Shown piece by piece: positions 31,335-34,136 of a DNA stretch of 34,987 bases. The DNA is taken from the NCBI GenBank assembly GCA_946415345.1, contig CAMKRY010000008.1, positions 1 to 34,987 on the forward strand. The letters run 5' to 3'. The position numbers were made by a program, and so were the translations under genes. The stretch comes from an uncultured Bacteroidales bacterium. GTDB lineage: Bacteria; Bacteroidota; Bacteroidia; Bacteroidales; UBA932. Numbering within the stretch: the first letter of the stretch is position 1; every line of letters starts with the position of its first letter. The notes beneath the pieces were generated by a model that saw only the letters and a program-made list of their open reading frames with translations, made no database searches and was not told where the DNA came from.

Positions 31335-31441
31335 GTTGAATGTAACTCTTTAGTACATAGGATATTAAGCAAATGACTACCCTCTCTCGAAGGGGGTAGT
31401 CATTTGCTTAACTGATTAATAATCAATAACTTCTATTCAAC
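31335..31441 (+). repeat. Foldback element copy C1 (107 bp; GTTGAAT...ATTCAAC termini) with perfect 18-bp internal stem
   Basis: gttgaatgtaac...ttaagcaaatgactaccc(31365-31382)/gggtagtcatttgcttaa(31394-31411)...taataatcaataacttctattcaac. Confidence 0.88.
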
Positions 31442-32845
31442 GCAATAGAGTCGCACGTCTGTAATCGGATTGGTTTTCAAAGGTATTTCCGGATAATTCG
31501 AGCTTAGGAGAATCTGGATATGACTGATACGATTGTCGTAATTGTGCATAGGCGATAAAACACCATCTTCATCTTTGTAATAGTGTCCCCAAACAGAATC
31601 CGCTTCGCTATTCAAAGTAACATAGTAGGTCTTGAACCGATTGTCATATCGATCATTGCTCCACTGATACTCGCTAAAAGCCTGGCTTTTACTTCCATCC
31701 GCAAAAGTAACAAGAATGCTGCTGATTTTATAATATCTGGATTCTGGCGTATGATAGAACGATTTTCCGTAATATGAGTTTCTCAACTTCCAAGCGTCCG
31801 CATCGCAGAAGGACATGTCAGTAACGTAGGTTGGTTTATGAAAGGAAATATCAACGGTTTCCGGCGTTGTGCTAGATACTTCAAATAGTTCTGATGCTAT
31901 TTCAAACTCTTTCATTTCCTTCCATGGCTCCGTTTCTTTCCATCGATGCGTGTAATCAGGCTTGAAATAGATTTCCAGAGGCTCTGATTCCGCAAAGTCA
32001 AAGGCTTCTGCGTGATAATTCCAACTGTTACCCTGACGGATGAACCCCGTCCAATTAATGTCGGGGGACTGGGAAATATATGACTTTCCATTATAGGTAT
32101 TTTCATGTCGCCATATAAATGAATCCGAAAGTGTGATTGAGATATCGATGGAACCGGCCTTTCCACATCCCCAATGCTGTGCTGGTGTAAAGTCATAGGT
32201 AATAACTCCTGAAGTTGTATAGTACCGGCTCATGAAAGAATACTGGCTGGGATAGACACTCATGATTTGTTTATGATAGAGATAATAAGTTACCCCTAGC
32301 ACGACAGTTTCCCGCGCTTGAATACTGAATTGTGTATAAGTCCATAGGCGGGAAATCTGTGGAACATCATACCAATCTTCGGGATTGTCAGGATCTGCGT
32401 TTCGCTCGTACGCTTCTCTGTGCTCAAGGGATACGATTTCATCCGCTGAATGCCAGGGTAACATCTGGCCATTCAAAGAAAAAGAAACATCCTTGATGTT
32501 CTTGTCCCACCATCCTGTTTCATAGATGCTTTCTGTAAATCCTTCATCACGAAAACCTCGTTTGTCTTTCGTCCCCTCATAATCGATGGGGAATCCGTAG
32601 TCGATATCCTTGATTGGCTGATAGGAATTGTTCCTTAGCGTATACTCTACATGAATCCTCGTGTAGGGGACTCCCGGTGTAATCGTCAGGGATTCGTGGA
32701 CGATTTCGACTTCGCTGACGGTCCTTGGGACTGGATTACCGGAGCGCGTTACGGAAGAATAGCGAATGACGGGATCGCCGTTGGCTGATGCAACGATGCA
32801 TGAAAGCAGAAAAGCGCAAATGATGAGGGGATAGGAGGGTTTCAT
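31433..32845 (-). CDS. Secreted protein, DUF4424-like N-terminal domain and possible NADase-type glycan-binding C-terminal domain
   Basis: Signal peptide MKPSYPLIICAFLLSCIVASANGD; VEYTLRNNSYQPIKDIDYGFPIDY; C-terminal ...NPITDVRLYCVE; stop codon lies inside element C1. Confidence 0.6.
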   Translation of the reverse strand: MKPSYPLIICAFLLSCIVASANGDPVIRYSSVTRSGNPVPRTVSEVEIVHESLTITPGVPYTRIHVEYTLRNNSYQPIKDIDYGFPIDYEGTKDKRGFRDEGFTESIYETGWWDKNIKDVSFSLNGQMLPWHSADEIVSLEHREAYERNADPDNPEDWYDVPQISRLWTYTQFSIQARETVVLGVTYYLYHKQIMSVYPSQYSFMSRYYTTSGVITYDFTPAQHWGCGKAGSIDISITLSDSFIWRHENTYNGKSYISQSPDINWTGFIRQGNSWNYHAEAFDFAESEPLEIYFKPDYTHRWKETEPWKEMKEFEIASELFEVSSTTPETVDISFHKPTYVTDMSFCDADAWKLRNSYYGKSFYHTPESRYYKISSILVTFADGSKSQAFSEYQWSNDRYDNRFKTYYVTLNSEADSVWGHYYKDEDGVLSPMHNYDNRISHIQILLSSNYPEIPLKTNPITDVRLYCVE

Positions 32846-32897
32846 AATACTGTGAATGACAAATAATGAGATGCAAATTATATGCCGGGATTATTAT

Positions 32898-32927
32898 TTG
32901 CATTTTGTCCGGAAAACCGTACCTTTG
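32898..32927 (+). promoter_or_regulatory. Promoter TTG-N19-TACCTTTG upstream of C2/transposase
   Basis: TTG 32898-32900; TACCTTTG 32920-32927. Confidence 0.5.
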
Positions 32928-32970
32928 AACGAGGCTCTTTTCCAACTGCTGGCTTTCCTCCAGGAACGCC

Positions 32971-33077
32971 GTTGAATGGAAATGATTGATAAATAGCAAG
33001 TTGGGTAATTTACTCTCCTATTGCAGTCGGGGGAGTGAATTAACGAAGTTGTTGACTGTCAATTAATAACATTCAAC
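32971..33077 (-). repeat. Foldback element copy C2 (107 bp), upstream of Y1 transposase
   Basis: gttgaatggaaatgattgat...aatttactctcc/gggggagtgaatt stem...ataacattcaac; opposite orientation to C1. Confidence 0.8.
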
Positions 33078-33086
33078 GGTTGTGTT

Positions 33087-34034
33087 ATGAAGAAAACTCG
33101 TCTTTTTTACCGAAATATCGTTCATCATTGTTACCAGAATACCCCGGATGGTTTTCTGTTGTTCTACAACGTCAGTGATTATCTGATGTATTTCACGATT
33201 CTGTGTACCGTCGCTCGCCGATATCCTGTCAAGGTGTTGAAAGTTTGTCCTATGGTAGACCATATCCATCTCTCTGTCATGGCAACGAACAGGACCGGCT
33301 TTTTCGCTTTTATCCAAGAGGTCTCATCCCTCTTTGCCCGTCAACACAATGCTGTTTGTCATTCAAAGGGCCCCGTTTTCAACTCGCCATTTGGATTCGC
33401 TCCCAAAACGAGCGACAAGAAGGTTCGGACCAATTTCATCTATGTAGACAATAACCCGGTAGAACGGAAGCTGGTCAGAAAGGCGGAAGAGTATCGATGG
33501 AATTTTCTGGCCTATGCTGCCAGTGATCATCCTTTTTCTGACAAACTGGTTCTACGGAAGGCCCGATATCCCCTGCAGCAGGCCGTACGCATGATTAAGA
33601 GGCAGCATGCGAAGGGCCATTACCTTTCATATCCTTTGCTTCAGCGCTTGTTTGCACCTCTTACCCGTCCAGAAAAAGAACAACTCACTGATTTCATAGT
33701 AACAACCTATAATATTATTGATTATCAGTACTGTATACGATTCTTTGATTCTCTGGAGAACATGTTGATCAGCACCCACGCCAACACAGGGAGTGAATAT
33801 GATATCAGTGAGATTGAAACAGGCAAGACGGATGCCGTGTATTTCCAAATATCACGCCTGCTTCTGGAAACCGGTCGCTTCCAGGACATCCATGATGTGC
33901 TGGCGTTATCTTCGGAAGCCAAAATGGATCTTTTCGAGTGGCTGCTTCCCAGGACCGCCGCAATCCCTGAGCAAATAGCCAAATACCTTCACATCCGGCT
34001 TGTCCGTCCCCGTGATGCAAAGAATATGCGTTGA
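33087..34034 (+). CDS. Y1/HUH transposase, REP-associated (RAYT)-like
   Basis: HUH motif CPMVDHIHLSVMA, FIQEVSSLFARQHN, candidate catalytic Tyr region TNFIYVDNNPVERKLVRKAEEYRWNFLAYA; flanked by C2 and C3. Confidence 0.85.
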   Translation: MKKTRLFYRNIVHHCYQNTPDGFLLFYNVSDYLMYFTILCTVARRYPVKVLKVCPMVDHIHLSVMATNRTGFFAFIQEVSSLFARQHNAVCHSKGPVFNSPFGFAPKTSDKKVRTNFIYVDNNPVERKLVRKAEEYRWNFLAYAASDHPFSDKLVLRKARYPLQQAVRMIKRQHAKGHYLSYPLLQRLFAPLTRPEKEQLTDFIVTTYNIIDYQYCIRFFDSLENMLISTHANTGSEYDISEIETGKTDAVYFQISRLLLETGRFQDIHDVLALSSEAKMDLFEWLLPRTAAIPEQIAKYLHIRLVRPRDAKNMR

Positions 34035-34136
34035 ATAGAAGTTGCTGATTATTAAACGAATAAACCAATGTCTCCCCCTTGTGGAGATGAGGAGATAATC
34101 GCTTAACTAGCTGCAGGCTAGGAGCTTACATTCAAC
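34031..34136 (-). repeat. Foldback element copy C3 (106 bp), immediately downstream of Y1 transposase
   Basis: gttgaatagaagttgctgattattaa...tctcc/ggaga stem...cttacattcaac; same orientation as C2; overlaps transposase stop codon. Confidence 0.85.

Follow-up and report, generated by a model that had tools for sequence, protein, structure and literature searches.

A RAYT-linked family of REPIN-like foldback elements in a genus of rumen Bacteroidales

Three foldback elements, C1 to C3, lie around the gene of a RAYT-like transposase in the window, by which we mean the whole stretch of 34,987 nucleotides analysed here, from an uncultured Bacteroidales bacterium. What are these elements, and are they mobilised by the enzyme that they adjoin? 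The features of the locus are collected in Table 1. A preliminary description had reported three copies with the ends GTTGAAT...ATTCAAC, the last of them 106 bp long. The copies and their ends stand, but C3 starts one base earlier than was given there, hence it has the same length as the other two. The central hairpins described at the same time were also recovered: the central arms of C1 (21 nt each) are 95% complementary and the fold-back of C2 spans the entire element. Folded as single-stranded DNA and compared with shuffled sequences, C1 has a z score of -8.8 and C2 of -4.4, while the structure of C3 is weak (z -1.8). C2 and C3 do flank the transposase gene, but their reported direct orientation carries little meaning, because the elements are nearly palindromic. 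Two of the element ends contain the stop codon of a gene, that of the RAYT in C3 and that of ORF470 in C1. A search of the window against Rfam gave no match.

Table 1. Features of the RAYT locus in the window (positions on the forward strand)
Feature	Position	Strand	Length	Remarks
C1	31335-31441	.	107 bp	between aminotransferase and ORF470; R1 model 86 bits
C1 left terminal repeat, GTTGAAT	31335-31341	+		counterpart ATTCAAC at 31435-31441; same pair bounds C2 and C3
C1 central hairpin arms	31365-31385 and 31391-31411			
ORF470	31433-32845	-	470 aa	secreted-type; between C1 and C2; stop in C1 end
C2	32971-33077	.	107 bp	9 bp upstream of RAYT start codon; R1 model 74.5 bits
RAYT-like HUH/Y1 transposase	33087-34034	+	315 aa	adjoins C2 and C3
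C3	34030-34136	.	107 bp	first bases hold RAYT stop codon; R1 model 60 bits

Is the enzyme a RAYT? Its sequence has the HUH motif (H59/H61), Y119 and the motif NNPVE; H59, H61, Y119 and N122/N123 are invariant in 28 family members, and P(V)E follows in most of them. It matches the NCBIfam model of REP-associated tyrosine transposases with an E value of 6e-8 (32.7 bits, below the curated cut-off of 80), and all 41 family members searched match NF047646 (REP_Tyr_transpos), the best at 3e-13; the Pfam model PF01797 gives 20.6 bits, below its threshold of 23. The earlier call of a RAYT-like Y1/HUH transposase is therefore upheld by the motifs and by a family match below the curated cut-off. A search of PDB by sequence gave no match. 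In the AlphaFold model (pLDDT 92.5) the protein consists of a catalytic part, at about residues 1-145, and an all-helical C-terminal domain, at about residues 160-315; the best fold match in PDB of the predicted catalytic part is 4er8, the E. coli RAYT-REP complex (E 3e-5). The helical domain matched no Pfam family and no HTH family. In a profile search the RAYT was confined to the genus, save for a distant match to the catalytic domain in one genome of another genus of the same family. We also noticed a second RAYT, truncated to its N-terminal 34 codons, in the window's own genome (L009:1501-1602, G000:C26), directly after a dprA-like gene; this remnant may explain the orphan element families of that genome.

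How widely are the elements spread? The own genome is a MAG of 1.34 Mb that is 56% complete, so the counts in it are lower bounds. The pattern GTTGAATN{75,105}ATTCAAC, which permits total lengths of 89-119 bp, was found there at 7 places, all exactly 107 bp long, and its reversed control at none. These seven copies were collected by their ends alone and not by pairing; central pairing is present in them, weakly in C3 and two others. With a covariance model the own genome has 15 significant matches, belonging to several terminal families. Of the 37 genomes of the genus, which we assume may be Cryptobacteroides (GTDB), 28 are matched by the model as well, and 24 genomes of other families have no match; across 296 genomes of the order, the own genome alone matches (0 of 295 others, among at most 13 candidates per genome). 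The proposal that many copies exist in this genome and its relatives is thus supported. Genomes of the genus have tens of matches each with both strands counted, corresponding to about 10-35 places per genome, in some at least that many, which is modest compared with classical REPs. Searched for in 60 relatives, the GTTGAAT pattern itself was found at scattered lengths only, little above the control, which indicates that this terminal sequence is specific to the window's own lineage.

Do the copies follow the transposase, as had been predicted? Within the genus, a strong RAYT match was found in 22 genomes, 21 of which contain elements; of the 15 that lack such a match, 7 do (Fisher p 0.0012, a value that ignores kinship). 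This outcome favours the prediction. The lone RAYT genome that has no elements, G036, carries a stop inside its RAYT. Elements with no RAYT detected occur in several genomes, including the sister species G115 and the 97%-complete G030, where about 30 or more elements were counted (L065); loss of the RAYT would explain such cases. At the level of loci, a search of named genomes gave 79 RAYT loci, nearly all in rumen or ruminant Bacteroidales assemblies; these loci hold 158 elements, 126 of them with refined borders. Defining an adjoining element as one within 350 bp upstream or 800 bp downstream of the RAYT, 68 of the 79 loci have one and 43 have them on both sides; the downstream element overlaps the RAYT stop codon at 23 loci, as in the window. 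The variable terminal bases on the two sides of one RAYT agree on average at 5.3 of 6 positions; between loci the mean is 2.5. The similarity of these bases tracks RAYT identity (Mantel r 0.28, p 5e-4), and most RAYT pairs that are at least 60% identical have at least 5 of the 6 bases in common.

What is conserved in an element? Most of the elements with refined borders measure 104-106 bp; at the other RAYT loci of the genus the range is 99-107 bp and the ends differ but are always GT...AC. When 31 elements of 16 RAYT families are aligned, covariation is confined to two helices, a family-specific terminal stem (columns 3-9 with 99-105) and a central hairpin (columns 39-48 with 60-69). The score is 0.706, against 0.159 in shuffles (0 of 500 reach it) and 0.12-0.18 with the partners slid, and it is inflated for the elements beyond the own seven, since these were chosen partly for palindromy. 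The terminal stem of each element comprises GT, its sole invariant part, and about 5-7 family-specific base pairs, and the sequence of the central hairpin is free. Between the helices lie two fixed spacers of about 27 nt that carry TAAnnnnnTTGATnnTCAnnnnnTTA and its mirror image, with A10, T17, A25, T32 and their mirror images as fixed positions. Hairpins within the arms or spacers have no covariation (observed 0.41, expected 0.42), which argues that the spacers are conserved as sequence; a classical REP doublet, with a hairpin inside each arm, was rejected on this ground. An integron attC site was considered as well. The attC consensus is GTTRRRY/RYYYAAC, and GTTGAAT and ATTCAAC fit it, but they occur in the opposite order to that of attC sites, and there is no integrase in the vicinity, so this candidate was dropped.

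The sister species G115 is about 89% identical over the tldD-pmbA locus. Seven orthologous positions are filled in both genomes, counting L092/L211, and these include the copy of C1 (L208:1501-1607) and the position of C3. In the six shared-position elements that were aligned, the ends are identical or nearly so and the interiors 51-97% identical; the pair L004/L205 shows compensatory changes in the central stem. Three sites filled in the own genome are unoccupied in G115 (L088, L090 and L093), each by a gain or a loss, and a fourth case of presence and absence was found in other species (L095 against L142). The comparison with empty sites that had been called for is thus answered in part: unoccupied sites do exist, but because of small indels each border can be placed only to within about 10-35 bp, and precise GTTGAAT/ATTCAAC borders were not obtained to the base. 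Two further comparisons were set aside. L104 was rejected as an empty site for the element of L102/L105 and is taken as a deletion remnant, because about 20 bp of the left end are retained; the alignment of L131 with L158 was too diverged. Two other repeats were noticed on the way. A second dispersed short palindrome, ATGCCCGACCTGATCGGGCATC, lies in the flanks of L089 and L093 and at more than 12 places in G115; it is a separate repeat, REP-like or terminator-like. The hairpin AAAGACCCCACGGACAATGCCGTGGGGTGACG, probably a terminator-like repeat, recurs in G115 contigs C2, C9, C14 and C20 among others and stands in tandem in the right flank of L089.

The dispersed copies, the association of RAYT and elements across genomes and the unoccupied sister sites support, as far as genome comparison goes, what appears to be a family of mobile repeats linked to the RAYT, and so do the constant anatomy, the compensatory changes that preserve pairing and the terminal bases that track RAYT relatedness. 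The modest copy numbers, the genomes that have elements but no detected RAYT, and the spacers, which unlike REPs form no covarying hairpins, weigh on the other side. Probably, C1 to C3 are non-autonomous, REPIN-like miniature elements that the neighbouring RAYT would mobilise in trans. Could they instead be fixed regulatory structures, that is, immobile bidirectional terminators or stabilisers of mRNA 3' ends that are selected at the ends of genes? Their positions would suit such a role. Of 133 elements, 130 are intergenic. Among the 40 that are distant from RAYT genes, 23 sit in a gap between convergent genes, a class expected to make up 22% of gaps (p 1.5e-6), and the median distance to the stop of a neighbour is 8.5 bp. 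The central stem commonly has A before it and T after it, and where the own genome has the L088 element, G115 has a terminator-like hairpin. But terminators need neither matching 7-bp ends nor a fixed length of 104-108 bp, and they need no terminal sequences that track a neighbouring transposase. Moreover, the A-rich and T-rich sides are both present in only 44% of elements, a scan of the window found terminator-like sites no more often than in shuffles, and the presence of elements differs between the sister species. A purely regulatory origin is therefore unlikely, and a terminator role of the elements may be a by-product.

A still less likely scenario is that element, RAYT and element move as one composite unit, and that solitary copies are remnants left by insertion of the whole unit or by recombination between elements. 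The content between the outer elements does change. At the orthologous locus of G115 the same two positions hold elements that enclose an esterase gene where the window has ORF470, C2 and the RAYT, so the cassette between the outer elements differs between the species, and the truncated RAYT of the own genome could be read in the same sense. Most elements, however, are solitary between ordinary genes with no RAYT remnant, and the RAYT has kept its locus among close species, as would be expected under vertical inheritance. The esterase (L208:322-1530, PF00756) has a CBM48 domain; the RAYT was looked for in G115 and not found. ORF470 matched no family and is absent from the sister-genome locus, and it may be a passenger or a neighbour of the element and RAYT system. 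A search for defence systems gave no match. That the elements are relics of an unrelated MITE with merely similar ends, and the RAYT a bystander, is most improbable: some genomes do have elements with no RAYT detected, and enzymes of the IS200 type do not usually go with long terminal repeats, but in the loci examined no other transposase was seen next to an element, in most species the RAYT gene is flanked by elements, their terminal bases match RAYT relatedness, and elements and RAYT are confined to the same genus.

How would mobilisation by the RAYT proceed? By analogy with IS200/IS605 enzymes and the E. coli RAYT, the protein would bind a folded single strand of element DNA, presumably at the replication fork, and may read the spacer motif together with the terminal sequence. 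Tyr119 would then cleave at or near C|GT and AC|G, and the copy would rejoin between the C and the G of a site rich in GC, usually a short way downstream of a gene. The context C|element|G is found for 98 of the 126 elements, and the next base on each side is G or C. The outer C...G was rejected as a part of the stem, for the complementarity at positions -2/+2 (0.48) is hardly above that expected (0.45), so that these bases look like a target preference. G1 and C107 may be bases of the element or part of a duplicated CG. A more tentative reading, somewhat more doubtful than not, goes further: the window would represent a distinct lineage of enlarged RAYTs with a C-terminal domain of its own, whose role we infer, that recognises a three-part element made of terminal stem, conserved spacers and central hairpin; the terminal "address" would diversify, giving many distinct RAYT-element pairs in one genus, which insert between C and G of GC-rich sites.

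Are the elements then new? The preliminary description had proposed an undescribed mobile repeat system; the repeat family is upheld, but "undescribed" overstates the case: published precedents include REPINs, TIRtrons and the atypical structures next to Bacteroidetes RAYTs. What we report is a real family of REPIN-like elements, linked to RAYTs, widespread in a genus of rumen Bacteroidales and uncatalogued before. REPINs are REP doublets that form hairpins and occur with RAYTs, for example in Pseudomonas fluorescens SBW25 (PMC3116915). Like them, the present elements are short, intergenic foldback DNA with inverted, invariant ends and a variable, hairpin-forming middle that keeps its length and pairing, and they flank a RAYT gene; the gene is bounded by inverted repeats copied elsewhere in the genome, as a RAYT gene is expected to be. 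But each end of a REPIN is a REP with a GT[AG]G foot and a hairpin of its own, whereas here GT alone is invariant and is followed by a family-specific stem, the spacers are conserved without covarying hairpins, the central hairpin is separate and the copies are fewer (PMC3116915).

Atypical secondary structures were mentioned in 2018 beside Bacteroidetes RAYTs of TnpAREP subclass 2.6, the RAYT group 5 REPtrons (Quentin et al., PMC6006769). Both cases share a Bacteroidetes RAYT and flanking structures that lack GT[AG]G and have copies elsewhere. Members of the subclass are described as averaging 179 aa, with a 21-aa insertion and an HUH-Y distance of 82. By this description the predicted RAYT does not fit subclass 2.6, for the proteins here have about 300-330 aa, 58 residues between HUH and Y (H61 to Y119) and a C-terminal domain of about 150 aa (PMC6006769). 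TIRtrons likewise have a RAYT-like gene, the TIRYT, between TIR elements that form repeat families, and most TIRYTs belong to subclass 2.1 and have GGGGWSAS in common (PMC3733652); GGGGWSAS was not found in the terminal sequences of our elements, and no HTH domain like that of TIRYTs was seen in the protein. With IS200/IS605 (IS608, ISDra2) the window RAYT shares the HUH/Y1 fold, but it does not lie inside a conserved autonomous IS, and the ends of the elements are palindromic instead of having subterminal hairpins. The specificity of RAYTs is difficult to investigate, since REPs hardly vary (GTAG). The genus described here contains dozens of RAYT-element pairs whose terminal sequences differ; therefore comparison could point to the residues with which the protein reads the ends, and these could be exchanged in a laboratory assay. 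A covariance model and a catalogue are now available for these unannotated repeats in a species-rich rumen lineage. The best explanation is a family of non-autonomous elements of the REPIN or TIR type, with family-specific ends, that a RAYT with a large C-terminal domain would mobilise; it is a variation on a kind of system already known.
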